Source of the DNA: a bacterium D16-56
GTDB lineage: Bacteria; Bacillota; Clostridia; Lachnospirales; Lachnospiraceae
Reading direction: 5' to 3'
DNA length: 64,000 nt
Assembly (NCBI GenBank): GCA_003611875.1
Contig: RAYY01000002.1
Location: forward strand, 186,001-250,000
Positions 3,781 through 40,965 of the stretch are shown here, piece after piece; within the stretch, counting starts at the first letter, position 1; every line of letters begins with the position of its first letter. Made by a program: the position numbers and the translations under genes. The notes beneath the pieces were generated by a model, which worked only from the letters and a program-made list of their open reading frames with translations, searched no databases and was not told the DNA's origin.

Positions 3781-5007
3781 TCAAATCTCTGCCCTTCTCA
3801 GAATATCATACTCCTTCAGCCCGACTCCCAAATCCACATACAGAACCTGCCTGGCATGAGGCGCATTTTCCATGGAAGCTCCTTCCTCATCCTCAATCCC
3901 CAAAACCTTCACCATCAGATTCTGTCCGTCCGGCTTCATGACCTCAATCTCCTCCCCCAGCCAGAACTTATTCTTCTGGCGGATCCTGCATCTTCCGTCG
4001 GGCCTTACCTGCTCAACGGTTCCCAGGTACGTATAATTCTTCTGGTATGTGCTGCTTCCATAGATCTGGGCGCTTTCATCCGGCTTTCCAAAATAAAACC
4101 CTGTGGTAAACTGCCGGTTCGTGCATTTTTCGATCTCCTCCTGATACCAATTCAGATTTGCCTGGTATTTGTCCGGATCCTCCAGGTAATCATCTATGGC
4201 CTTCCGGTAAGCCCGTGTCACCACTGCCACATAGAGGGCTGTTTTCATCCTTCCCTCCACCTTAAAGCTGTTGATCCCGGCTGATACCATCTCCGGAATA
4301 TGCTGGATCATGCACAAATCCTTGGAATTAAAAATAAAAGTCCCTCTCTCATTTTCAAATACCGGCATATATTCTCCCGGACGAGTCTCCTCCATCAGCC
4401 CATAGCTCCACCGGCAGGGATGGGTACAGGCTCCCCGGTTGGCATCCCTTCCTGCCAGAAAGCTGCTGAGCAGGCACCGGCCCGAATAAGAAATACACAT
4501 GGCGCCATGGACAAAGCTTTCAATCTCCATCTCCTCTGGGATCCTTTCCCGAATCTCCCGAATTTCCTTTAAGGACAATTCTCTTGCCGACACCACCCGC
4601 TTTGCCCCCAGCCCATACCAAAACTGGTAAGTGCCGTAATTCGTATTGTTGGCCTGGGTGCTGATGTGAATGTCAATCTCCGGCACCTCCTGCCTTGCAA
4701 TGGAAAAAATCCCCGGATCGGATATGATCAATGCATCCGGCCCATACTCTCTCAGCTCCTGAAAATATTCCCTTGCCTTGTCCAGATCCTCATTGTGAGC
4801 CAGAATATTGGCCGTAACATAAACCCGCACCCCATGGTCATGGGCATAGGCGATCCCCTGCCGGATCTCCTCCCCGGTAAAATTCTTCGCTTTGGCGCGG
4901 AGTCCAAAAGCCTCTCCTCCCAGATACACCGCATCCGCGCCGTACATAACTGCTGTTCGTAAAATATCCAGACTTCCCGCCGGAATCAAAAGCTCAACCC
5001 TTCTCAA
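3781..5007 (-). CDS. trhP: U32 peptidase-family tRNA hydroxylation protein (TrhP/YrrO-like)
   Basis: 408-residue U32-family protein. Members next to trmR in Bacillus (TrhP1/TrhP2, formerly YrrN/YrrO) are needed for 5-hydroxyuridine at tRNA position 34, using prephenate. Four conserved cysteines fit a [4Fe-4S] site: Cys171 and Cys178 in the signature ESFVHGAMCISYSGRC, then Cys194 and Cys198. A C-terminal U32 collagenase-like domain follows from about 300. The start is TTG at 5007 with GGAGAG upstream, and it overlaps the end of trmR by 14 bp, suggesting translational coupling. One U32 gene is present here, whereas Bacillus has two in tandem. Assignment to the tRNA role rests on family plus synteny. 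Confidence 0.85.
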   Translation of the reverse strand: MRRVELLIPAGSLDILRTAVMYGADAVYLGGEAFGLRAKAKNFTGEEIRQGIAYAHDHGVRVYVTANILAHNEDLDKAREYFQELREYGPDALIISDPGIFSIARQEVPEIDIHISTQANNTNYGTYQFWYGLGAKRVVSARELSLKEIREIRERIPEEMEIESFVHGAMCISYSGRCLLSSFLAGRDANRGACTHPCRWSYGLMEETRPGEYMPVFENERGTFIFNSKDLCMIQHIPEMVSAGINSFKVEGRMKTALYVAVVTRAYRKAIDDYLEDPDKYQANLNWYQEEIEKCTNRQFTTGFYFGKPDESAQIYGSSTYQKNYTYLGTVEQVRPDGRCRIRQKNKFWLGEEIEVMKPDGQNLMVKVLGIEDEEGASMENAPHARQVLYVDLGVGLKEYDILRRAEI

Positions 5008-29111: not shown

Positions 29112-30095
29112 CTAATTCTCCGCCCCTGCCATAAGAAGCTGCTCTGTAATTTCAGTCAGCCCTGCCTCGGAAGCATAATACAATGCACTGTGCTGTTCAT
29201 TGTCCACAGCGTTCACATCTGCGCCGTTTTCAATCAGCATTGCCGTAAAATCGTTTCTGCCGTTTCTAGCCGCCACAATAAGCGGGGTCAGGCCCTCTGC
29301 CGTCTTTCCATCCACGCCTGCGCCGGCTGCAAGCAATGCTCTGCCCACATACAGATCGCCGTTGCCAGCCGCAATATGAAGCGGCATAACGCCGTTTAAA
29401 TCAGCACAATCCGGCTTTGCATCCGCCTTAAGCAAAAGCTCCGTAATAACAAGATTGGATTTTTTCACTGCCAGCATAAGGGGAGATTCTCCCTCGTCAT
29501 TCAGCTTATTCACACTGTCCTTATCCTTCTCAAGAAGCACCTTTACCACTTCTCCCTGCTCGTTCCAGCAGGCATGGTGAAGAGTCGTATTGCCATAGGT
29601 ATCGGTATGCTCCTCCTCTGCCTGGGTAAGCGCTTTTACCAGCTCCCTCAGCCCGGAGGATGTGGCATAATCAACCGCCATACGGCTGTCATGATCCTTG
29701 ATTTTAATATCAATATCCGGATTTTGAATGAATTTGATCGCAGCATCCGTCTTTCCATGCTGCGCCATAACCATCAGCGGCGTAACACCATCGTTATCGG
29801 TACAGTTCACATCTGCTCCTGCCTCTGTCAGTAAAGCGATGATCTCAGAATTTCCCGTCTCTGCCGCAAAATGCAGAGGCATAAGATTCCGCTGATTTCC
29901 CAGATTCGCATCTGCTCCATTTTCCAGAAGCATTTTTACCAGATCTCGTGCATTTTTAAGACAAGCATAAATAAGAGGGGTATTGCCGGATTCATCCCGT
30001 TTATTCACATCAATACCGCCCCGTTTTAAAAATGTCTGCACAACACTTTTCCGGTTATTTTTACATGCCTGTAAAAACATATTGTCAAGCTGCAT
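29112..30095 (-). CDS. Ankyrin-repeat protein
   Basis: 327 residues made almost wholly of about nine ankyrin repeats (for example GNTPLIYACLKNARDLVKML, LMPLHFAAETGNSEIIALL, GLTPLIVAARNGRNDFTAML). No signal peptide, membrane segment or catalytic domain. Such proteins bind other proteins. Start ATG 30095 follows GGGAGAA. It lies 98 bp after a TPR-like gene on the same strand and opposite a larger ankyrin gene, so the three probably form one functional locus. Confidence 0.88.
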   Translation of the reverse strand: MQLDNMFLQACKNNRKSVVQTFLKRGGIDVNKRDESGNTPLIYACLKNARDLVKMLLENGADANLGNQRNLMPLHFAAETGNSEIIALLTEAGADVNCTDNDGVTPLMVMAQHGKTDAAIKFIQNPDIDIKIKDHDSRMAVDYATSSGLRELVKALTQAEEEHTDTYGNTTLHHACWNEQGEVVKVLLEKDKDSVNKLNDEGESPLMLAVKKSNLVITELLLKADAKPDCADLNGVMPLHIAAGNGDLYVGRALLAAGAGVDGKTAEGLTPLIVAARNGRNDFTAMLIENGADVNAVDNEQHSALYYASEAGLTEITEQLLMAGAEN

Positions 30096-30193
30096 GGTAT
30101 TCTCCCACCCTTTCTGTTTGTTTTATATAAAAATAAAGGCTCAAATCGCAGCCAAGCTTAGGAGCGGTTCCTAAACAACCTGTGAGCCGTTCC

Positions 30194-30685
30194 TTACAAT
30201 AGTTCAATCTGATATTGCCGTAAAAACCTGACGCATAAAGACGCCTCCTGCTGACGGCCAAGCGCAAGAAGACAAAGAGCCATAAGCCATTTGATCCGTA
30301 TCTGGCCGTAACGCGCAAGCTTTTTGCCGCTTTCCGGGTCCAGGGGAAGCAGCCCGGCTTCCTTTCCTGCTGCAGACAATGCCTGTGTTAAACGCTTTCT
30401 GTCTGATACGTCAAAATCAGGAGCGCTGCCCAGAGACTGCTCTGCCAGCTTAAGCTCTGTCAGAGCCTTTTCATATTCTCCCAGCCGGTATAAGCAGAGT
30501 CCGCAGTTAAATGCCGTTGCATAGGACAGTTCTTCTGCTTTCCGCCTTTCTGCTTTCCGCCTTTCCATAAGTGATTTGGCTGTCAGCCATGCTGCAGGCA
30601 AATCTCCGCAAACCAGCCCGCGATACAAGCATCGGTCGTCTTCTATAGCTTCGGCAGACTCCCTTCCCTTACCTATAAATTCCAT
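30194..30685 (-). CDS. TPR-like protein of unknown function
   Basis: 163 residues with one readable TPR-type helix pair (FNCGLCLYRLGEYEKALTEL) and a C-terminal helix pair (LMALCLLALGRQQEASLCVRF). A 15-bp tandem duplication creates KAERRKAERRKAE near residue 43. Start ATG 30685 follows AGGAGG. It is first in a unit with the 327-residue ankyrin gene, behind a good promoter. Confidence 0.7.
   Translation of the reverse strand: MEFIGKGRESAEAIEDDRCLYRGLVCGDLPAAWLTAKSLMERRKAERRKAEELSYATAFNCGLCLYRLGEYEKALTELKLAEQSLGSAPDFDVSDRKRLTQALSAAGKEAGLLPLDPESGKKLARYGQIRIKWLMALCLLALGRQQEASLCVRFLRQYQIELL
30535..30564. repeat. 15-bp tandem duplication inside the TPR-like gene
   Basis: CTGCTTTCCGCCTTT occurs twice head to tail (30535-30549 and 30550-30564), adding five residues in frame; a likely slippage site. 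Confidence 0.9.
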
Positions 30686-30748
30686 ACTTCCTCCTATTAC
30701 ACGTTCCCGCAGTTCTTTTTATCACCTTCGGCTCCAAAACCATATTTT

Positions 30749-30777
30749 ATTTTATCGCCTTAAAGAGTACAAGTCAA
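30749..30777 (-). promoter_or_regulatory. Promoter for the TPR-ankyrin unit
   Basis: TTGACT and TAAAAT separated by 17 bp on the minus strand, about 65 bp before the TPR-like start. Confidence 0.65.
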
Positions 30778-30855
30778 GTAATAGTACAGATGTAACCCAC
30801 CTGAAAACATTTCTGTCTCAGCAGCCTAATTCCCCTACCATTCCTATGGCTCCTG

Positions 30856-30864
30856 TGGTATAAT
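30856..30864 (+). promoter_or_regulatory. Extended -10 promoter of the large ankyrin gene
   Basis: TGGTATAAT on the plus strand, about 70 bp before the start at 30935; the -35 position is weak. Divergent from the TPR-like promoter 80 bp away. Confidence 0.5.
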
Positions 30865-30934
30865 CATAGCTGCACCAATCTGCACACGGCCAAACGTGTA
30901 CTAAACCATAAACATACACAGAAAAGAGGACATT

Positions 30935-32995
30935 ATGGACATAAAAGAGCTTACTGATTTGCTGGTAACTTCCTCTCAGCAGATTAACCAATGCAAATTC
31001 ATTCCCTGGTGGAACGATGATTTTGAAAGCAGCATTTACTGGTACACCATCATCCCTCCAAACATTGTAACAGATGCAGAAAGCTGTATTGCAGAATGCC
31101 CCAAAGAGACTCTGCTGAAGCCGGTAGGCAGCTATGGGCTTTCCTTGTTTCACCTTCTGGTCTGGCACAATTTCTACGATGCCGTAAAAAGCATACTGGA
31201 TGACCAACAGACAGAAGAAAAAGCCGTTAATCTGCCTGACCATAAAGGCTATGGCCTGACCCCCCTTCTGCTGGCCTGCTGTCGGGGAAACCTGGCCATG
31301 GTCAGACTTTTGCTGGAGCATAAAGCAGATCACAATCTGTCTGACAAACGAGGCATGAACCCCTATCATTTTCTGGTATACCCCAGATTTGAAGGACTGG
31401 TAAATACCTGTACAGACAAGACTGCAGACCAGAGACAGGCCATTGCCCGCCTTTTAAACTGCGACGTCAATCAGAAGGACCAGGAAGGCTTTACTCCCCT
31501 GGTACGCCTTTTGTCCACCTCCTACTGCTCTGGCTATACCTGGCCTCTTACAGAAGTTTTTCTGGATAAAGACGCCGACACAGATTATACAGACAAAGAC
31601 GGCAATTCCCTTCTGATGCTGGCCCTGATAAACGGCCATATGACTGGAGCGCTCCAACTGATGAATCGTCATAGGGAGCTGGTCCACATACCAAATAAAG
31701 AAGGCATCACACCCATCCAGCACTCCTATAATTGGAGAAATGAAGGGCTTTGCCTTGCCCTGGAGGACTGCGGTGCAGATCCGGTTAACACGACTCCCAT
31801 GGACATAGACCATTTAAGCCAGATTACCAGCAATGCTTTCTGCCGCTGTTTTGACGATGACCAGGATGGCGTCAGCCTTGCCTTGTATCTGACAGAAAAG
31901 CTGATTGGACAGGTGGATATGGACGATGATGACGAGCTGGGATATGTAACCGAGATTTTCCACAATGCCCTCATCTCTGACAAGGATTTCCGGGTTCTGG
32001 ATGCATGCCAAAAAGCAGGTCTGGACTTTACCATGCCGCTCCATTTTCAAGGCAGCATCATCTGCCTGCGCGATGAATGCCTTGACATCCGCTATGAGCC
32101 AGACATGATCCGGAAATTAACAGAGCTGGGTGTGGATATGGATACCGGGATCATCAGAGGACAGACCCCTGCCAATCTTATTGCCTCCAAAACCAGACAC
32201 TCCCAAAGCTCTGAGGAGGAGGATTCCTTCCGGAAAACAGCAGAGCTTTTGTCCAAAGAATCTATGGAGCAGCTAAACAACAACGGTCTGGCCGCAATCC
32301 ATCTGGCTGCACAAAACGGACATATCGATATGCTGGCCGTTATGATCGAAAAGGGTGTGGATGTAAATCTGATGGAGGATGCGCCTGCAGAGCCAGGAAC
32401 AACCCCCCTTCATGAAGCGTGTACCTATGGCCATTGGGATGCTGTAAGGCTTTTGATGGCCGCCGGCGCAGACGACACCATGAAAAATTCCAAGGGCGAA
32501 ACACCGGCCCACTGTGCGGTAAAGAACAAGAAACCTGGCAATGAGCTGACGCCAGAACAGCGGATTCAAGTACTGAATGAACTGAAAAATCTGGATCTGC
32601 CGGAAGACAGCGGAAAAACCCCTCTTATGCTGACACAATTTCTGGATCTGTCTACTTCCAGGGAGCTGCTCCGCTTCTTTATCGAAAAAGGCGCAGATGT
32701 GAACCGCACGGACAATCATGGCATGACCACTTTAATGCTCAATGCAGCAAATTTCTGCCGTAAAGATTTGATCAAGCTGCTGATTCAGTCCGGAGCAGAT
32801 ATCCATGCAGCAGACAGCCAGGGCAATACGGTCTTGTATTATTCTCTGAAATCCGACGATGCAGGGACAGCACGATATCTGATCAAAAAAGGCGCCAATT
32901 ATAATCAGCCCAATAATCAAGGCGAAACGCCTGTACAGATAGCGGTGGAAAAGGGCTTTGATACGGTATTGGAGCTTATGACTGACATTGAATAA
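30935..32995 (+). CDS. Large ankyrin-repeat protein
   Basis: 686 residues. An N-terminal non-repeat part (to about 65) is followed by ankyrin repeats in two blocks (about 65-290 and 440-686), split by a segment at about 290-440 without clear repeats (acidic DMDDDDELGY). Repeat signatures such as GLTPLLLACCRGNLAMVRLL, TPLHEACTYGHWDAVRLL and KGADVNRTDNHG are clear. No signal peptide or enzyme domain. Start follows AAGAGGAC. It is the only large plus-strand gene of this part and has its own terminator. Ankyrin proteins of this type often sit near secreted-toxin loci, but none is adjacent. Confidence 0.88.
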   Translation: MDIKELTDLLVTSSQQINQCKFIPWWNDDFESSIYWYTIIPPNIVTDAESCIAECPKETLLKPVGSYGLSLFHLLVWHNFYDAVKSILDDQQTEEKAVNLPDHKGYGLTPLLLACCRGNLAMVRLLLEHKADHNLSDKRGMNPYHFLVYPRFEGLVNTCTDKTADQRQAIARLLNCDVNQKDQEGFTPLVRLLSTSYCSGYTWPLTEVFLDKDADTDYTDKDGNSLLMLALINGHMTGALQLMNRHRELVHIPNKEGITPIQHSYNWRNEGLCLALEDCGADPVNTTPMDIDHLSQITSNAFCRCFDDDQDGVSLALYLTEKLIGQVDMDDDDELGYVTEIFHNALISDKDFRVLDACQKAGLDFTMPLHFQGSIICLRDECLDIRYEPDMIRKLTELGVDMDTGIIRGQTPANLIASKTRHSQSSEEEDSFRKTAELLSKESMEQLNNNGLAAIHLAAQNGHIDMLAVMIEKGVDVNLMEDAPAEPGTTPLHEACTYGHWDAVRLLMAAGADDTMKNSKGETPAHCAVKNKKPGNELTPEQRIQVLNELKNLDLPEDSGKTPLMLTQFLDLSTSRELLRFFIEKGADVNRTDNHGMTTLMLNAANFCRKDLIKLLIQSGADIHAADSQGNTVLYYSLKSDDAGTARYLIKKGANYNQPNNQGETPVQIAVEKGFDTVLELMTDIE

Positions 32996-33126: not shown

Positions 33127-33888
33127 CTACAGCAGTATGGAATCCACCAGCATCCTGGTATACTCCGTTTTCGGATGCAGTATCACCTCATCCGTGATTC
33201 CCTCCTCCACGATCTTCCCCTCATTCATTACCAGAATCCGATGGCAAAAGGATTGTACCAATGCCAGATTATGGCAGATAAACAAATAAGACAGCCCATA
33301 AGAATCCCGAAGCTTCCAAAGCAGCTCCATGATCTGCTGCTGCACCGTCACATCCAAAGCTGAGGTTGCCTCGTCACAAATCAGGATCTTGGGCTGAATC
33401 GCCAATGCCCTGGCAATGGCTGCCCGCTGGCATTGACCGCCGCTTACCTGGTGAGGATACCGCAGCCCAAGCTCTGCCTCCAGTCCACACTGCTCCAAAA
33501 GCTCCCGCACCCGCGCCTTGACCTGTGCATTGGCAAGTCTTCTGTTTTGCAGGCTTTCTCCAATGCTGTCTCCCAGGGTCCGCCGAGGATCAAAAGAGCT
33601 TACAGGGTCTTGAAATACCATCTGGATATTCTGGTATGCGTCCCGCAGCTCTTTTCCCTTTGCTTTCGTTATGTCCTGTCCGCATAGACAGATGCTGCCT
33701 TCTGAGGGATTGATCAACCGGCACACCAGCTTTGCCAGGGTGCTTTTGCCGCTGCCCGATTCTCCCACAATGCCCAATGTCTCCCCCTGATTCAGCCGGA
33801 AGCTGATGTGATCAACCGCAGAAAAATCTCCTTTCCCCCGCACGGCATATTTTTTTGTCAGATCCTTCACTTCTAAAATCGGTTCCAT
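33127..33888 (-). CDS. ABC transporter ATP-binding protein, nickel/peptide importer type (NikE/DppF-like)
   Basis: 253 residues: Walker A GESGSGKST, signature VSGGQCQRAAIARALA, Walker B ILICDEATSALD, and switch His in FICHNLALV. It is the second ATPase of the importer and last gene of the eight-gene operon. Its ATG at 33888 directly follows the stop of the partner ATPase gene. The family covers nickel, metallophore and oligopeptide uptake; the LarE and methyltransferase context favours metal or metallophore. Confidence 0.88.
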   Translation of the reverse strand: MEPILEVKDLTKKYAVRGKGDFSAVDHISFRLNQGETLGIVGESGSGKSTLAKLVCRLINPSEGSICLCGQDITKAKGKELRDAYQNIQMVFQDPVSSFDPRRTLGDSIGESLQNRRLANAQVKARVRELLEQCGLEAELGLRYPHQVSGGQCQRAAIARALAIQPKILICDEATSALDVTVQQQIMELLWKLRDSYGLSYLFICHNLALVQSFCHRILVMNEGKIVEEGITDEVILHPKTEYTRMLVDSILL

Positions 33889-34671
33889 CTATTTCCTCCG
33901 CAGCCTGGGAACTGCTGCCAGCAGACTCTGGGTATACTCCTTTTTCGGAAAGCACAGCACCTGCTTTGCCGGACCATATTCCACCACCCTGCCATCCTTT
34001 AGCACCAGCACCGTGTCAGCCATGGCAGACGCCACCCCGATATCATGAGTAACCAGGAGCATGGCCGTTTTAAACATATCCCTTAAACGAAGCATTTCCT
34101 CCACCACCTGCCTCTGTACTGCTGCGTCCAAGGCACTGGCAGGTTCATCTGCCAGCAGCACCGACGGCTTCATGAGCATGGCAATGGCAATGCCCACCCG
34201 CTGGTTCATGCCCCCGGACAATTCAAAGGGATAGCTGTCCCAGATTCGGCGGCTGTCAGGAAAATGCAGCTTCTCAAACAGCTCCAAAGCCATTTGTTCT
34301 GCTTCTGCCCGGGATATGTCTCCATGGGCAGCCATACTCTCATAGATCTGGCTGCCCATGGTGCGGATGGGACACAGGGAAGCCTTGGCGTCCTGAAAGA
34401 TCATCCCGATTTTGGCGCCTCGGATCAAGCGCAGCTCTTTTTCCTTTAAATCCGGTATGTCCTTTCCCTGAAAAAAAATATTCCCGCCAGTTACCATGCC
34501 GCTGCTGCCAAGCAATCCCATTGCCGCCTTTAATAAGGTGCTTTTTCCGCTGCCCGATTCTCCCACAATACCCAGGATCTCCCCCGGATGCAGCGAGAAG
34601 CTGACATCATGGATGACAGCATGGCCATGAAAGGCTATCTCCACATTCCTGTACTGCAGCAATTCTTCCAT
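33889..34671 (-). CDS. ABC transporter ATP-binding protein, nickel/peptide importer type (NikD/DppD-like)
   Basis: 260 residues: Walker A GESGSGKST, signature ELSGGMNQRVGIAIAML, Walker B VLLADEPASALD, and VTHDIGVA. First of two paired ATPases. It is shorter than the 320-residue DppD/OppD, lacking their Cys-rich C-terminal extension, which fits the Nik/Cnt branch. Start follows AGGAGGAA, 16 bp after the substrate-binding protein gene. Confidence 0.88.
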   Translation of the reverse strand: MEELLQYRNVEIAFHGHAVIHDVSFSLHPGEILGIVGESGSGKSTLLKAAMGLLGSSGMVTGGNIFFQGKDIPDLKEKELRLIRGAKIGMIFQDAKASLCPIRTMGSQIYESMAAHGDISRAEAEQMALELFEKLHFPDSRRIWDSYPFELSGGMNQRVGIAIAMLMKPSVLLADEPASALDAAVQRQVVEEMLRLRDMFKTAMLLVTHDIGVASAMADTVLVLKDGRVVEYGPAKQVLCFPKKEYTQSLLAAVPRLRRK

Positions 34672-34687
34672 TTACCATTCCTCCTGG

Positions 34688-36247
34688 TCAGGCTGTACCA
34701 GGCGCCAGCTCTGCGGTAATCTCATAATAATCACAGGGATGAGCCTCCAGCCCGGTGACACCGGCTCTGGAAATCATGTTCATTTTCAGATGGGAACAGA
34801 AAATGTAGGCATTATCGTCCAGAATGGTCTGCTGCATCAAAACTGCCAGTTCTTCTCGGCGGGCAGTGTCAAAGGTTTCTGCCAATTCCTGCCCCAGCTT
34901 CTCCAGCCTGTCGCTGTGATAATGGCCATTGTTTGCAGAAGACCGGTCCAGGCAATGGGTAGTAAAAAAATACTCCGGGTCTCCGGTAGGAGCCGTAACC
35001 ATGGCGCTGGCATATACATCCCATGCGCCGGAATCCCTGCGCAGGCTGTTGTGGTCAGCAGTGCAGTAAACAACAACGGAAATGCCGATATCCTTTAAGG
35101 TGGCCTGGGCCGATTCTGCAAGCAGCGGCAGCTCCTGACGACTGGGGTAAGTCAGCCACCGTATCTCAAGCCTTTTGCCGTCCTTCTCCCGGATACCGTC
35201 GCCGTCGCTGTCTATCCATCCCGCATTCTCCAATACCTGCCTGGCTCCCTCCGGGTCATAGACTTCTGTCTGAACGGCATCGCCGCCAAAGGAAAGGTTG
35301 TCCGGATAAGCTCCGGCCGCCACATAACCATTGCCGTCCAGCAGCGTATTCACAAAGCTTTCTTTATCAATCCCCATTGCCATGGCTTTCCGCACAGCAC
35401 TGTCCTGAATAACCGGGCTGTCAAAATTCATATGAACGAAAAAAGCCCTGCTGGTTGCGCAGCCTGATATGGTATAATCTTCATTTCGAAACAAGGGATA
35501 GCTGGCATAAGGCATTCCATAAGCCCCATCGATCTCACCGGACTGCAGCGCCATTGTCAGGGTATCCCCGTCAGAAATGGTACGCACAGTGATTTCATCA
35601 AAGCCCGGCTCACCATTCCAGTAATTTTCGTTTTTCACCAGCTCCAGCCGTTCACCGGAGATAAGAGATACCACCTTGTAGGGACCGGTGGCAGTCACTA
35701 TACCGTCATCCGTGATCCCTGCCTGCATATCAATGATACATCCGTAAGGATCCGAAAGATAATTTAACAGAGCAGGCTTAGGTACCTGGGTCTTAATGGT
35801 CACAGTCTGTCCCTCGGCTGAAACCGTATCGATCATCAAGTCGCCCCGCGCCCGGTCATGGACCTCAATCAGATGCTCCAGACACTCCTTTACCGCCTCA
35901 CCGTCCATCTTCCTGCCGCTGGTAAAGGCAACATCGTCCCGCAATGTAATAACCCAGGTCCGGTCATCCACATTTTCAAACCCTGCAGCCAGCCAGGGCT
36001 CCATCTCCATGGAATCAGAATAGCGAAACAAGGTTTCTCCCACACCATAGCGGATGCAGGCCCAGCCGGCATAGGTATGGTGCGGGTTTACATCCGGCTC
36101 CTCATTTTCCGGATTGAACGTGGTATCGCCAAATACAAAGATCTTTTTTTCTTCCTCTGCTGCCGCCTTCTCAGAGCCGCCGCAGCCTGCCAGAACACCA
36201 AGACCTAAGAAAAACGCCAGAATCCATGCTTTTGTGAATCGTTTCAT
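34688..36247 (-). CDS. Substrate-binding lipoprotein of a nickel/metallophore-type ABC importer
   Basis: 519 residues. Lipoprotein signal with lipobox LAGC at about residues 18-21, then a family-5 (SBP_bac_5) fold: VNPHHTYAGWACIRYGVGETLF, TFTLRDDV-like WVITLRDDVAFTSG, and ATGPYKVV. The family includes NikA, CntA and DppA. The ATG at 36247 follows AAAGGAGG. Genes for two permeases lie upstream and two ATPases downstream, completing a five-gene importer. Confidence 0.88.
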   Translation of the reverse strand: MKRFTKAWILAFFLGLGVLAGCGGSEKAAAEEEKKIFVFGDTTFNPENEEPDVNPHHTYAGWACIRYGVGETLFRYSDSMEMEPWLAAGFENVDDRTWVITLRDDVAFTSGRKMDGEAVKECLEHLIEVHDRARGDLMIDTVSAEGQTVTIKTQVPKPALLNYLSDPYGCIIDMQAGITDDGIVTATGPYKVVSLISGERLELVKNENYWNGEPGFDEITVRTISDGDTLTMALQSGEIDGAYGMPYASYPLFRNEDYTISGCATSRAFFVHMNFDSPVIQDSAVRKAMAMGIDKESFVNTLLDGNGYVAAGAYPDNLSFGGDAVQTEVYDPEGARQVLENAGWIDSDGDGIREKDGKRLEIRWLTYPSRQELPLLAESAQATLKDIGISVVVYCTADHNSLRRDSGAWDVYASAMVTAPTGDPEYFFTTHCLDRSSANNGHYHSDRLEKLGQELAETFDTARREELAVLMQQTILDDNAYIFCSHLKMNMISRAGVTGLEAHPCDYYEITAELAPGTA

Positions 36248-36260
36248 ATGTTTTCCTCCT

Positions 36261-37115
36261 TTACCGGCTGCCGCTGGAATCCAAATAATCCCGCATGGTA
36301 TCGCCAAGAAGATTAAAAACTGCCACTGCCGTAAAAATCCCAATACCGGGGCCAATGACGACCCACGGGTAGGTCTGCAGCATGCTCCGCCCACTGCTCA
36401 TCATATTGCCCAGCTCCGCTGTGGGCGGCTGTGCGCCCAGACCCAAAAAGGATAAGCCTGCCAGCTCCATAAGCATGGTGCCGATATCAAGCACGGCAGT
36501 GACTAAGACAGGGCCAAGGCTGTTGGGAAGAATATGCCGGAAAATGATCTGTACCGAAGAACCGCCTGCCAGGTGTGCGGCAGCAATGTAATCCAGAGTT
36601 TTTAGGGTCAGGGTCTGGCTGCGGGCAATCCGGGCATATTTAGGCCAGCTAATCACTGCCAGCGCAATAACCGCGTTTTTGATGCCTCCGTTTAACAATG
36701 CGGCGATTGCCATCGCAAATACCAGACCCGGAAAAGCCAGACACACGTCAGAAATGCGCATCACAGCCGAATCCAGAATACCGCCATAAAAGCCGCACAG
36801 CACTCCTGCTGCCGTTCCTGTCACGGTAATTATCGCGACAAGCGTCAGGGCAGAGGTAATGCTGGTTTTTAATCCCACCAGGATTCTGGAAAACATATCC
36901 CGTCCAAAGCGGTCGGTTCCTGCAGGATGAGCCAGACTAGGCGGCTGTAAGAAAATACCGGTATCCTGAAGATTGGGATCATAGGGGCAGAGCCGCTCCG
37001 CAAAAATAATCACCAAAAGCAAGGCAGCCGTCAGAGTCAGAAAAAACACAAGACGGGCTTTTACCCGATTTTTGTGAATCTTCTGTCTTCGAATCGTAAC
37101 CGTTTCCGTGCTCAT
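36261..37115 (-). CDS. ABC transporter permease, NikC/DppC-like
   Basis: 284 residues, about six membrane helices with an N-terminal Lys/Arg-rich tail (RRQKIHKNRVKAR), the PSLAHPAGTDRFGRDMFSRI periplasmic motif typical of DppC/NikC, and the EAA-type loop AAHLAGGSSVQIIFRHILP. Start ATG 37115 overlaps the end of the partner permease gene by 4 bp (ATGA), showing translational coupling. Confidence 0.9.
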   Translation of the reverse strand: MSTETVTIRRQKIHKNRVKARLVFFLTLTAALLLVIIFAERLCPYDPNLQDTGIFLQPPSLAHPAGTDRFGRDMFSRILVGLKTSITSALTLVAIITVTGTAAGVLCGFYGGILDSAVMRISDVCLAFPGLVFAMAIAALLNGGIKNAVIALAVISWPKYARIARSQTLTLKTLDYIAAAHLAGGSSVQIIFRHILPNSLGPVLVTAVLDIGTMLMELAGLSFLGLGAQPPTAELGNMMSSGRSMLQTYPWVVIGPGIGIFTAVAVFNLLGDTMRDYLDSSGSR

Positions 37116-38059
37116 GGCTCCCTGCCTCCTTCCAGCCGGATTCTTGGGTCCAGGAAATGATAGGAAAGATCCGTGATCAGGTTCACACAGACGTAAATGA
37201 CCGCCATCCACATAACATAAGCCTGAATCATAGGGTAATCACGCATATGGATGGCATCAACTGCCAGCCTGCCCACCCCGTCCCACAAAAAAATGGATTC
37301 CACAATCGCCGTTCCGCCCAGAAGACTGCCAATAGAGAGTGCCAATAAAGTAAGGATGGTCACAAGAGACGCCCGCAGAACACTTTTCGTCAAAATAACA
37401 GAAAAGCCTACGCCTCTTGCCTGTGCGCCGGCCACATAGCTTTTGCTCAATTCCTCCAGCACTGCGGCGCGTACCTGCCGCAGATATTTTGCCGACATGG
37501 CGACAGCCAGAGTAACGGCAGGCAGCGCCACGCTCTGTAATCCAACACCAGAGGCAATGACCGGAAAGAGCCTGAGACGAATCGCAAAAAAATACATCAG
37601 CAGCAGCGCCACAAAAAAATTAGGCATACTGTTGCCCAAAAAACTGCATAAACGAATCAGATAATCTGTAAATCGGTTCTGCCTCACTGCTGCCAGAACT
37701 CCCAGAGGGATGGAGACCACCACCGTAAGCATAATCGAAACGGCTGTCAGCAGCAGAGTCGCCGGAAGCTTGGACAGAAAAACAGGAAGAACCTTCTTTC
37801 CGGAAATATAGCTGGTTCCCATATCTCCATGAAACAGCCTTCCCAGCCACACAGCATACTGGGTCAAAAACGGCTTGTCCAGCCCCAGCTCCATCCTGAC
37901 CCTTTCCATAACCTCCTGGGAAAGCGCCATGCCTGTATTCTCCATTTTCTGAAGCACCGCATCACTGCCCGCTAACCGCATCATAGCAAAAGACAGGAAG
38001 GTGATCACCAGCAAAATGGGAACGATCTGCAGCAGGCGCTTTATTACATAGCTTCGCAT
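37112..38059 (-). CDS. ABC transporter permease, NikB/DppB-like
   Basis: 315 residues, six predicted helices beginning MRSYVIKRLLQIVPILLVIT; contains the DppB-type GLDKPFLTQYAVWLGRLFHGD motif and the EAA loop YVAGAQARGVGF. Start ATG 38059 follows GGAG 10 bp upstream. It is first of the five transporter genes and follows the second methyltransferase by 47 bp. Confidence 0.9.
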   Translation of the reverse strand: MRSYVIKRLLQIVPILLVITFLSFAMMRLAGSDAVLQKMENTGMALSQEVMERVRMELGLDKPFLTQYAVWLGRLFHGDMGTSYISGKKVLPVFLSKLPATLLLTAVSIMLTVVVSIPLGVLAAVRQNRFTDYLIRLCSFLGNSMPNFFVALLLMYFFAIRLRLFPVIASGVGLQSVALPAVTLAVAMSAKYLRQVRAAVLEELSKSYVAGAQARGVGFSVILTKSVLRASLVTILTLLALSIGSLLGGTAIVESIFLWDGVGRLAVDAIHMRDYPMIQAYVMWMAVIYVCVNLITDLSYHFLDPRIRLEGGREP

Positions 38060-38106
38060 GGGTTCTGATCTCCTTTCCGTATGCTTGCCTTTTCTGTATG
38101 TTTCTT

Positions 38107-38901
38107 TCAATACCAGATCTTCTGCTCCTTTCGGGCCTCTATGAGAAACATGGGCGTGGAAGCATTGTTGATCCGTTCCTCTCTGGTCCATACCCGCTTC
38201 CATATCTCTGTATCTGCAAACGCTTCCATCCCAAGCTCCTGCAGCATATCCAGATCCCACTCCGGACGTTTTCTGGCAGACAGAGGGGCCTTCCGAGCAA
38301 TGGCTTCCATGGCAGCCACATCTGTTCCTTCCGTTTCATCCCCCACCTTGGAATTTACAATATTCTCCCGATCCTGCAGATGTCCCTTCCTTGCAGCCTC
38401 GTCGTAAAGATAACGATACCACCCGGCATCAAAATTCAACAGCAGGCCGCCCTTTTTTAGCACCCTGCTCCACCGGGCATACGCCTTCTTTGGATGGCGC
38501 AGGTTCCAGGTCAGATTCCTTGTCACCAGCACGTCAAAGCTGTTATCCGGAAAATCCAGCTCCTCTGCATTCATCTGATAAAAAGAAATGTCAGACGCCA
38601 GACTGCCTGCATTTTCCTTTGCCGCTTTCAGCATGGAAGCCGTGTAGTCCACAGCAGTCACACGATAGCCCATTTCTGTCAGAATAATGGCAAAAAAGCC
38701 TGGACCTGTACCTACATCCAGCACTTGAAGCTGATCTGGCGTTCTTTCCGGAAACCGGGCGGCAATCCGTTCGGAAATAATGCTGCCCCAGACAATACGC
38801 TGCCGGGAGGCCAGCTCTCCTTGATTGACCTCCAAATAGCCGGGAGTACGTTCTGTCCAGTAATGAATGTTCTCCTCCTCATAGCTTGCAAACCTTTGCA
38901 T
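38107..38901 (-). CDS. Class I SAM-dependent methyltransferase, paralog 2
   Basis: 264 residues, Methyltransf_11/UbiE-like. Motif I LDVGTGPGFFAIILTEMG; the segment VLVTRNLTWNLRHPKKAYA and KKGGLLLNFDAGWYRYLYDE closely parallels the neighbouring methyltransferase, so the two are paralogs. The substrate is unknown. Its place between larE and a metal-type importer suggests a role in making or modifying a metal-binding small molecule or cofactor (inference). The ATG at 38901 has GGAGGAGAGG upstream. Confidence 0.85.
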   Translation of the reverse strand: MQRFASYEEENIHYWTERTPGYLEVNQGELASRQRIVWGSIISERIAARFPERTPDQLQVLDVGTGPGFFAIILTEMGYRVTAVDYTASMLKAAKENAGSLASDISFYQMNAEELDFPDNSFDVLVTRNLTWNLRHPKKAYARWSRVLKKGGLLLNFDAGWYRYLYDEAARKGHLQDRENIVNSKVGDETEGTDVAAMEAIARKAPLSARKRPEWDLDMLQELGMEAFADTEIWKRVWTREERINNASTPMFLIEARKEQKIWY

Positions 38902-38992
38902 GCTTCCTCTCCTCCTTTTTGTCAGGCGTCTGCAAGGCTCAAAATCCCGCAAAGCCTCTGACCGCTTTGGCTTCTGCATCTGCTAGTGCCTC

Positions 38993-39715
38993 TCATTTTA
39001 CCGCATAAATTCCAAACATCGGCGCAGTGCGCAGATCAAAGCTGCCAAGTACACGCCTTCCTGTACTGATATCCGTTTCACACCTTTGAAAGCCGGTTGC
39101 CAGCAATACCTTTTGGTCCCATTGGGGACGTGATTTCCTGCTGATTTCCATGGACAGCGTAATCAACCGGTTTTCCTCTTCCATTTCTCTGGTCATACCC
39201 ATATGGCCATAGGGACTGTCAGCAGCAACCTGGCTGTTCTGGAGATTTTCGCTTCGCACATGTTCCCCATAAGCAGCGTCAAAATTTAAAAGAACACCTC
39301 CCTTTCGCAGAACCCGATACCATTCTCTGTAGGCTTTCTCCGGCTCCGGGAGAGTCCACGTCAGATTCCGGCTGACTACCACATCAAAGCTTTCCGGCTC
39401 ATAGCTTAGACTCTGTGCATCCATCTGCCGGAAACAAATGGAAAGACCCCGTTCCTTTGCAAGAGCGGCCGCCTCTTTCAGCATGGCAAAGGTCAGGTCG
39501 ATTCCCTGCACACGATGCCCTTTCCCAGATAAAAGAACAGCAAAAAATCCGGTTCCTGTCCCCACATCCAGAATGTCCAAGCTTTTTCCTTTCGGCAAAT
39601 ATGCTTCCATCTCCTTAAGCCACCGGACGCCCATATCATTTTCCAACTCATTCTTACGGATCTGTCCAAAATCATGTGCCCGTCGGGTCCAGTATTTTTT
39701 AATGCGTTCCTCCAT
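38993..39715 (-). CDS. Class I SAM-dependent methyltransferase, paralog 1
   Basis: 240 residues, same family as the downstream paralog: motif I LDVGTGTGFFAVLLSGKG, VVVSRNLTWTLPEPEKAYR, and RKGGVLLNFDAAYGE. The shared NLTW and NFDA motifs point to a common substrate class. It is 46 bp after larE and about 90 bp before the second methyltransferase. The ribosome site is weak (GGGGATTGGAAACATAGG before the ATG). Confidence 0.85.
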   Translation of the reverse strand: MEERIKKYWTRRAHDFGQIRKNELENDMGVRWLKEMEAYLPKGKSLDILDVGTGTGFFAVLLSGKGHRVQGIDLTFAMLKEAAALAKERGLSICFRQMDAQSLSYEPESFDVVVSRNLTWTLPEPEKAYREWYRVLRKGGVLLNFDAAYGEHVRSENLQNSQVAADSPYGHMGMTREMEEENRLITLSMEISRKSRPQWDQKVLLATGFQRCETDISTGRRVLGSFDLRTAPMFGIYAVK

Positions 39716-39761
39716 CCTATGTTTCCAATCCCCTCTGTATATGATTCATCCATCCTGTCAT

Positions 39762-40508
39762 TTATTCTCTTACCTCCAGATCTACAGATACCGTTTTATA
39801 GTATTTTTTTAATTTTGTCAGAATTGCTTTGCGATGCTTCAGCAAAAGCGCAAACTGCGGCTCCGGTATCTGCAGCCTTCCATGGCCGTTCTGGGAACGG
39901 ACACGGAAATCCGTAAAGCCAAGAGAAAACAGATAGCTTTCCGCATCCTCTGTTGCAGACAGTTTATCCCCTGTGATTTCCTCACCAGTGGGAATCCTTG
40001 TGGCAAGACATGCATAGGCAGGCTTGTCCCAGGTAAACAGCCCTGCCTCCTTTGAAAGCCGACGCACCTGTGATTTTGTCAGTCCGCATTCCCGCAGCGG
40101 AGAAAAAACAGACAATTCTGCCAATGCCCGCATCCCCGGACGATCGCCTGCCTCATCAGAAGCATTGGTTCCATCCAGAAGCACAGAAAAGCCGTCGGAT
40201 TCTGCCGCTTCCGTAATTGTACGAAACAATGCCCTTTTACAGTAATAGCAACGGTCTGACGGATTTTCCCTCACACCTGGAACAGAAAGTATGTTTTGAT
40301 TAAGAATCCTCATTTCCGCTCCAAGTTCCCTTGCCAGCCGCTTGGCATCGTCCAATTCAAACCGGGGCTGAAACTCAGATTTTACATAATAGGCCCTTAC
40401 TTCCTTTGCATACTGTTTTGCTGCATATAACAAATATGCCGAATCCACGCCGCCGGAAAAAGCAACCGCAGCCCTTGGATGACACGCAAAAAATTCCTGC
40501 AGCTTCAA
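39762..40508 (-). CDS. larE: LarE-like ATP-dependent sulfur transferase
   Basis: 248 residues, PP-loop ATPase with SGGVDS at 18-23. Family cysteines are Cys87 and Cys90 in DRCYYCKRALF and Cys167 in YACLATRIP, the position of the sacrificial sulfur-donor cysteine of LarE. LarE inserts sulfur while the nickel-pincer nucleotide of lactate racemase is made; no larA, larB or larC is in this window. The start is TTG at 40508 with GAGGTG upstream. First gene of the operon, behind a hairpin leader. Confidence 0.88.
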   Translation of the reverse strand: MKLQEFFACHPRAAVAFSGGVDSAYLLYAAKQYAKEVRAYYVKSEFQPRFELDDAKRLARELGAEMRILNQNILSVPGVRENPSDRCYYCKRALFRTITEAAESDGFSVLLDGTNASDEAGDRPGMRALAELSVFSPLRECGLTKSQVRRLSKEAGLFTWDKPAYACLATRIPTGEEITGDKLSATEDAESYLFSLGFTDFRVRSQNGHGRLQIPEPQFALLLKHRKAILTKLKKYYKTVSVDLEVRE

Positions 40509-40532
40509 AGCATCACCTCATTTCAAAAAAGT

Positions 40533-40570
40533 AAAGCACACAGATCCCCTTCTGAGGATGTGTGTGCTTT
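40533..40570 (-). terminator. Terminator-like hairpin in the larE leader (attenuator candidate)
   Basis: AAAGCACACA and TGTGTGCTTT form a perfect 10-bp stem topped by ATCC/GGAT; on the minus strand it is followed by ACTTTTTTG and then directly by the larE ribosome site. It lies between the promoter and the first gene, so it would regulate the operon itself. Confidence 0.7.
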
Positions 40571-40663
40571 CTAAGCATACCATTCACGCAATATTCAAAT
40601 TTTATGGATTGAAAAAGTTCAATGCTTCTGCATCAGTAAAGGCAGCTTCCTGCTGTCTTAATA

Positions 40664-40692
40664 GTTATACAACATTGAAACAAAAAAATCAA
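40664..40692 (-). promoter_or_regulatory. Promoter of the larE-methyltransferase-importer operon
   Basis: TTGATT and TATAAC with a 17-bp spacer on the minus strand. The leader of about 150 bases contains small hairpins (ATGC-AGAA-GCAT and TTGAA-CTTT-TTCAA) before the terminator-like one. Confidence 0.6.
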
Positions 40693-40965
40693 GCTCTAGT
40701 TTTACTCGGTTCCATCTCTGCGCCATCATAGGTTACTGTTCACGGGGACATCTTTTTACCCGGCTCCGCCGGACAAGAAGCATCGGGTGTCCATTCGATG
40801 TGGAAAACTGGACGAAAATAGTCTTACAAGCACATCTTCCCTGAATCCTTTCCCTAAGCCTCATCTGTACCGTTACGCCGAAGTCTCAAAAGCCTGCAGC
40901 CACAGGTTTATTGATGCCATGGCAGATCGTCCCTGTTAAATCTGTACGGCAGGAAATCGCCTTTA
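40693..40965. other. Intergenic stretch without a recognisable gene
   Basis: Between the larE promoter and the manA stop. It holds a CCGGC-TC-GCCGG hairpin near 40772-40784 and no convincing coding frame; possibly the remnant of a lost gene. Confidence 0.4.

Follow-up and report, generated by a model that had tools for sequence, protein, structure and literature searches.

The described systems closest to the locus reported here are opine metallophore clusters, Nik-type importers and the lar genes. Opine metallophore systems of the Cnt/staphylopine type place a small set of enzymes that use S-adenosylmethionine (SAM) next to an Opp/Nik-type ABC importer, and a study of opine zincophore clusters reports both Opp-type and FecCD importers and includes MatE among the efflux families screened (PMC7438024). 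NikABCDE and the Opp2-Opp5A transporters are five-subunit family 5 ABC importers. LarB, LarC and LarE act in synthesis of the nickel-pincer nucleotide (NPN) cofactor, and the lar genes of L. plantarum include a nickel transporter. Here we describe an operon found in a 64,000-nt stretch (the window) of contig RAYY01000002.1 from the Lachnospiraceae bacterium D16-56. On the minus strand at 33127-40508, eight close-packed genes encode LarE, two paralogous methyltransferase-fold proteins (MT1 and MT2) and a Nik-type importer. We read it as a nickel-supply operon in which MT1 and MT2 would form a two-enzyme SAM unit that builds or modifies a metal-carrying ligand, i.e., performs a nickelophore step, and give this reading a probability of roughly one half.

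The methyltransferases are recurrent neighbours of metal importers. A search with MT1 recovered 44 of 299 genomes of the host's family (E up to 1e-20; the 299 genomes represent 298 genera, almost one genome per genus) and, among GTDB contigs, 25 loci from bacteria that the contig titles describe as Clostridia-type or unclassified Bacillota. Including the window, 82 methyltransferase (MT) loci were annotated, with matched open reading frames (ORFs) called first and then the longest, so that unlabelled neighbours may be shadow ORFs. Of these loci, 38 have both methyltransferase clades, 19 have only MT1, 21 have only MT2, and four have neither; because the loci were found via MT1, MT2-only units are under-sampled. 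NikA, NikB, or NikC lies within 7 kb of the methyltransferase in 66 of the 82 loci, 59 of which have both NikB and NikC, and when loci were merged at a methyltransferase identity of at least 80%, 49 of the resulting 61 clusters had Nik genes. In 20 arbitrary 18-kb windows taken from large contigs, no NikB or NikC scored above 60 bits and no NikA above 100 bits. A profile search at the level of the phylum found methyltransferases in 32 of 398 genomes, 30 of which are outside the host's family, and in these 30 genomes a NikB homologue is located within 10 kb at 27 of 43 methyltransferase places (0.94 expected, given the copy number and the rounded genome size). The initial annotation had proposed a methylated metal ligand and had named missing co-occurrence of methyltransferases and importer as evidence against its proposal; the opposite was found, both in the 82 loci and at the phylum-level places, which lends the methylated ligand support.

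The importer beside the methyltransferases is not always of the Nik type. One locus (L074) has ZnuA and ABC-3 in place of Nik, and two others (L108 and L128) have FecCD and Peripla_BP_2. One family genome (G102) has a second methyltransferase locus (C1:1438868-1440786, L117) with a Nik gene set nearby; two TGA stops interrupt its MT1-like match, and it is therefore probably a decaying copy.

MT1 (38993..39715, minus strand) and MT2 (38107..38901, minus strand; start taken as 38901 in an ORF open from 38979) match Methyltransf_11 with 85.7 and 82.6 bits and share 39% identity over the matched part, as well as the NLTW and NFDA motifs that the initial annotation had pointed out. The 120 methyltransferase ORFs yielded 128 domains, four of which were shorter than 190 residues and were excluded; in the tree of the remaining 124, MT1 belongs to a clade of 57 domains (support 0.911) and MT2 to a clade of 61 (support 0.935). 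The glycines of the SAM motif (G52, G54, and G56) and Asp73 are invariant in 39 of 39 aligned MT1 sequences, and in MT2, G66, G68, and D85 are invariant and G64 is nearly so. Pfam matches and AlphaFold2 models (pLDDT 92 for MT1 and 95 for MT2) assign both to the class I SAM-dependent methyltransferases, with a Rossmann fold, GxGxG, and an acidic ribose ligand. Since the SAM-binding residues are kept and the class I models are of high confidence, both enzymes are probably active. Foldseek (MT1 only) and a VIA comparison (both proteins) returned many class I methyltransferases with tied scores but no clue to the substrate, and among the matches listed in searches of open-licence PMC papers there was no description of the pair.

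In relatives, the two methyltransferases are joined to each other and to a putative deacylase. MT2 and MT1 are fused in one ORF in two loci (L085 and L088), and four ORFs have the order MT2-AspA-MT1 (L087, L090, L091, and L092), while AspA-MT1 fusions occur in eight further ORFs. Two additional loci have two methyltransferase domains in one ORF, of which one (L121) or both (L129) fall outside both clades. The fused AspA domain was identified with Pfam AstE_AspA_cat on two proteins and in the rest with a profile built from the fused domains, and because gene calling may leave shadow ORFs as neighbours, AspA was searched again in all ORFs of at least 100 residues. We found AspA in 27 of the 82 MT loci and in none of 80 controls (60 LarE loci and the 20 arbitrary windows). 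It is present in 26 of 57 MT1 loci and in none of the 21 MT2-only loci, and was found neither in 30 short-flank phylum loci nor, in the search of ORFs of at least 100 residues, in the window itself. All 12 fused domains keep the H-x-x-E and D-x-H motifs, and nine keep DGxNxNxxFP. These proteins thus share the AstE_AspA_cat domain and metal-site motifs with the DoeB/AstE-AspA deacylases, and the closest solved relatives of one fused domain (3na6, 3cdx, and DoeB 6twm/6twl) include N-acetyl-L-2,4-diaminobutyrate deacetylase; they differ from DoeB and AstE-AspA in their link to the methyltransferases, as 26 of the 27 AspA loci have an MT1-clade domain and AspA is fused in 12 ORFs.

Some MT loci also encode candidate exporters. 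MATE-like genes are present in nine (one Pfam-confirmed), in six of which they lie within 11 bp of the methyltransferase or overlap it, and exporter-type ABC half-transporters are present in nine, in five of which they are directly at the methyltransferase. LysR-like genes occur in eight loci, FecCD-like genes in three, and CbiK-like genes in three (Pfam on members). The CbiK-like genes, which belong to a cobalt chelatase family, are near the methyltransferases in L086, L098, and L114 (Pfam on L114 only), and in L098 the called CbiK-like ORF overlaps an AspA-MT1 fusion ORF.

The importer of the window operon comprises two permeases, a solute-binding protein, and two ATPases, all on the minus strand. 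The NikB/Opp2B-like permease (37112..38059) scores 348.9 bits with NF045470 Opp2B (cut-off 350), the NikC/Opp2C-like permease (36261..37115) 290 bits with NF045474 Opp2C (cut-off 300), and the NikA-like family 5 solute-binding protein, which has a lipoprotein-like N-terminus (34688..36247), 330 bits with NF045468 Opp5A_nikA (cut-off 600). The best NCBIfam models for the NikD-like ATPase (33889..34671) are CntF (241 bits), CntD (239.9 bits), and NikD (237.9 bits, cut-off 318.7), and those for the NikE/OppF-like ATPase (33127..33888) are OppF (256.1 bits) and NikE (247.7 bits, cut-off 332.55), all below cut-off. The shortfall is about 1 bit for NikB and 10 bits for NikC. Although below cut-off, the best models for the permeases and the solute-binding protein are the nickel ones, and the nearest solved chains of the latter are 3t66 and S. 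aureus NikA 4ofj, which points to nickel as the predicted cargo. The importer shares the five-subunit family 5 architecture of NikABCDE and Opp2-Opp5A and has nickel models as the best matches of its permeases and binding protein, but differs from them in staying below every NCBIfam cut-off and in being preceded by a methyltransferase pair.

LarE (39762..40508, minus strand, TTG start) scores 253.9 bits with TIGR00268 (cut-off 150) and is the sole LarE above the family cut-off in the genome (5.54 Mb, 202 contigs, 97.5% complete). Its PP-loop (SGGVDS at residue 18) is intact, as noted in the initial annotation, which had also taken Cys167 for a sulfur-donor-type cysteine. The latter assignment did not hold. 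Among the cysteines at positions 9, 87, 90, 141, and 167, C87-X-X-C90 and C167 form the CXXC-C motif linked to the [4Fe-4S] LarE of the T. maritima type (PMC9283937), and the donor cysteine of L. plantarum LarE (5udq, sequence position 176) aligns with Ala166, with Cys167 on the next residue; the alignment with 6b2o gives the same result. Because the motif is present and Ala166 occupies the donor position, we rejected Cys167 as a sacrificial sulfur donor. A one-residue shift of the third cysteine relative to the donor position has been described (PMC9283937). In the 5udq and 6b2o alignments, Arg202 and Arg204 correspond to Arg212 and Arg214, which bind phosphate in L. plantarum LarE (PMC9283937), and Thr170 stands at Ser180. 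The operon LarE thus has the cysteine pattern of [4Fe-4S] LarE and is predicted to be of this cluster type; matches to this pattern were also obtained in the 57 called LarE loci described below.

The remaining lar genes are encoded elsewhere in the genome. A single larC is located on contig C135, with an adjoining LarB-like AIRC-domain gene (larB), and two LarA homologues exceed the Pfam cut-off of 23.3 bits, one on contig C125 (139 bits) and one on contig C44 (35 bits). With LarE, larB, larC, and two LarA homologues, the genome has the complete set of NPN genes. The absence of larABC asserted in the initial annotation is accordingly true of the operon and fails genome-wide. The operon LarE resembles the LarE of described LarBCE systems in its score, PP-loop, and CXXC-C motif, and in having larB, larC, and LarA homologues in the same genome; it differs in that larE is apart from larBC, within a nickel-import operon. 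The C125 LarA homologue (L013 8182-9675) lies in a cluster whose genes look, on inspection, like those for phosphofructokinase, triose-phosphate isomerase, and aldolase, a link between an NPN enzyme and glycolysis-like genes, and the weaker homologue (L014 7095-8426) has neighbours that read as a tripartite tricarboxylate transporter, a PdxA-like protein, and a hydroxyacid dehydrogenase.

The closest relative seen, L049, shares 81% nucleotide identity over the operon and has retained the leader and MT1-MT2-Nik. Between them, at 3826-4121, are relics comprising the opening codons of larE, a stretch of some 10 codons that aligns with larE around residue 196, and larB fragments, whereas open larB and larE plus larC (as far as the locus reaches) are found at another place in the same genome (L240). 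We interpret this as loss of lar genes from an ancestral larE-larB-MT1-MT2-nik operon. For LarE of the window operon, the most likely role is in ordinary NPN cofactor synthesis. The suggestion of the initial annotation that a thiolated ligand or a new nickel cofactor is centred on LarE is not supported, and LarE as the core of a new nickel cofactor was rejected because the lar genes are present elsewhere and larE was lost from the locus in this sister genome.

How the methyltransferases relate to NPN chemistry bears on whether they could instead modify a LarE, LarB, or LarC intermediate or produce a variant nickel cofactor. Such a role could account for the lar genes beside the unit in three loci, namely the window (LarE), L102 (LarE, LarC, and LarB), and L112 (LarE, LarB, and LarC), and for the relics in L049. 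It would also agree with the genome-level distribution: LarE is present in 41 of 44 methyltransferase genomes versus 138 of 255 others (Fisher p 2e-7), and LarA in 16 of 44 versus 46 of 255 (p 0.009), so that methyltransferase presence tracks LarE more than LarA, in counts uncorrected for kinship, genome size, and completeness. Yet 79 of the 82 MT loci are without LarE, and LarB and LarC are found only in L102 and L112. A tblastn search with the host LarE, LarB, and LarC over 81 MT loci likewise found only these two, and since it missed the relics of L049, other lar relics may have been missed as well. From the opposite direction, 60 LarE loci of the host's family were fetched, of which 57 gave a LarE call (L144, L145, and L183 were dropped). 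LarB is near LarE in 28 of them, LarC in 33, NikB in 12, NikC in 12, NikA in nine, and a methyltransferase in none, in a sample that was hand-picked from the listed matches, is non-random, and left out the window, L102 (genome G230), and L112 (genome G037), which hold both. A Nik-type importer beside LarE is thus not unusual in the family. Together with the sister genome, which keeps MT1-MT2-Nik with its larB, larE, and larC at another place, and with methyltransferases that adjoin Znu or FecCD importers rather than Nik, these data make a role of the methyltransferases in NPN chemistry improbable. Across the 299 family genomes, we found LarE in 179 and LarA (E up to 1e-15) in 62, and 131 LarE genomes are without LarA at this threshold, which misses weak homologues such as the second LarA of the host.

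Another question is what the importer carries. Nik and Opp/Dpp transporters form one superfamily and all five subunits are below the nickel cut-offs, so the transporter could import peptides or another nutrient, with the methyltransferases acting in the corresponding catabolic or detoxifying route and nickel being irrelevant. We consider this unlikely, as nickel models and solved nickel-binding proteins are the best matches of the permeases and binding protein, the methyltransferase unit repeatedly has lar genes as neighbours, and the alternative importers beside it are metal importers. In a further alternative, MT1 and MT2, and AspA where present, might act after import, methylating or cleaving a chelator made by others and thereby releasing nickel inside the cell. 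Nik genes near 66 of the 82 loci with MATE or exporter-type ABC genes in only nine loci each would suit such a role, as would AspA being a hydrolase-family domain with conserved motifs. Metal release by methylation has no precedent known to us, however, and the exporter genes that abut methyltransferases in some loci better fit synthesis and export; release after uptake is in our view possible but rather doubtful.

We therefore return to the nickelophore reading. The partner genes, which encode different kinds of metal importer, exporters in some loci, and a deacylase, point to the organic ligand of the metal as the substrate of the methyltransferases, and we infer that they act in its biosynthesis rather than in its release after uptake. 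In this scheme, the Nik-type importer would bring in nickel, probably as a chelate, and MT1 and MT2, as a conserved two-enzyme unit, would draw on SAM in making or altering its small organic carrier, comparable to the use of SAM by CntL for staphylopine. Relatives would have an additional step, catalysed by the AspA/DoeB-type deacylase, and may export the ligand through MATE or ABC transporters. Like the opine clusters, which have FecCD importers as an alternative and exporters in some cases (PMC7438024), the MT loci combine small SAM enzymes with interchangeable importers; unlike them, the window operon is without an exporter. Nicotianamine synthase (CntL-like) was absent from the Pfam matches of MT1 and MT2 (E up to 0.001; the search covered these two proteins only), and opine dehydrogenase (CntM, PF10100) had no match in the host genome, with control genomes equally silent. 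Because the transporter types match and the opine enzymes were not seen, the unit may work by analogy to an opine system but is not placed among them. More tentatively, MT1 and MT2, together with the AspA/DoeB-like deacylase in many relatives, could constitute a pathway not described so far, by which anaerobic Clostridia convert SAM and a common metabolite into a small molecule that carries nickel. The group transferred by one or both enzymes might be aminocarboxypropyl instead of methyl, and the product, imported by Nik-type importers, would supply nickel to NPN and further nickel enzymes. The SAM-enzyme unit is compact and accompanies nickel-type importers in many Clostridial families; it offers a testable way towards a new metallophore and towards understanding how anaerobes acquire nickel.

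The genes are ordered larE, MT1, MT2, NikB, NikC, NikA, NikD, and NikE-like. Intergenic gaps are 46 bp (LarE-MT1), 91 bp (MT1-MT2), 47 bp (MT2-NikB), 13 bp (NikC-NikA), 16 bp (NikA-NikD), and 0 bp (NikD-NikE), and NikB overlaps NikC (start 37115) by 4 bp. Coordinates, gaps, and strand bear out the eight tightly spaced genes of the initial annotation, and its family assignments agree with Pfam and NCBIfam. Its single promoter was not recovered: a consensus scan of the leader (40509..40692, minus strand) found neither promoter nor terminator, and by eye only a promoter-like TTGATT-17-TATAAC was seen at 40692-40664. Rfam matched no family near its gathering score in the operon region and leader. 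The leader is 82% identical to that of L049 over about 205 bp, with a fold z of -3.28 for 40505-40700, and a hairpin followed by a T-run (40570-40533), directly before the larE start codon, is almost unchanged in L049. A small stem, CAGC/GCTG, reads CGGC/GCCG in L049, although the window's own lowest-energy fold pairs this stem otherwise. The leader could be an attenuator. Two ankyrin-repeat genes (29112-32995) adjoin the downstream end of the operon, one identified by Pfam (30935-32995) and the other by reading.

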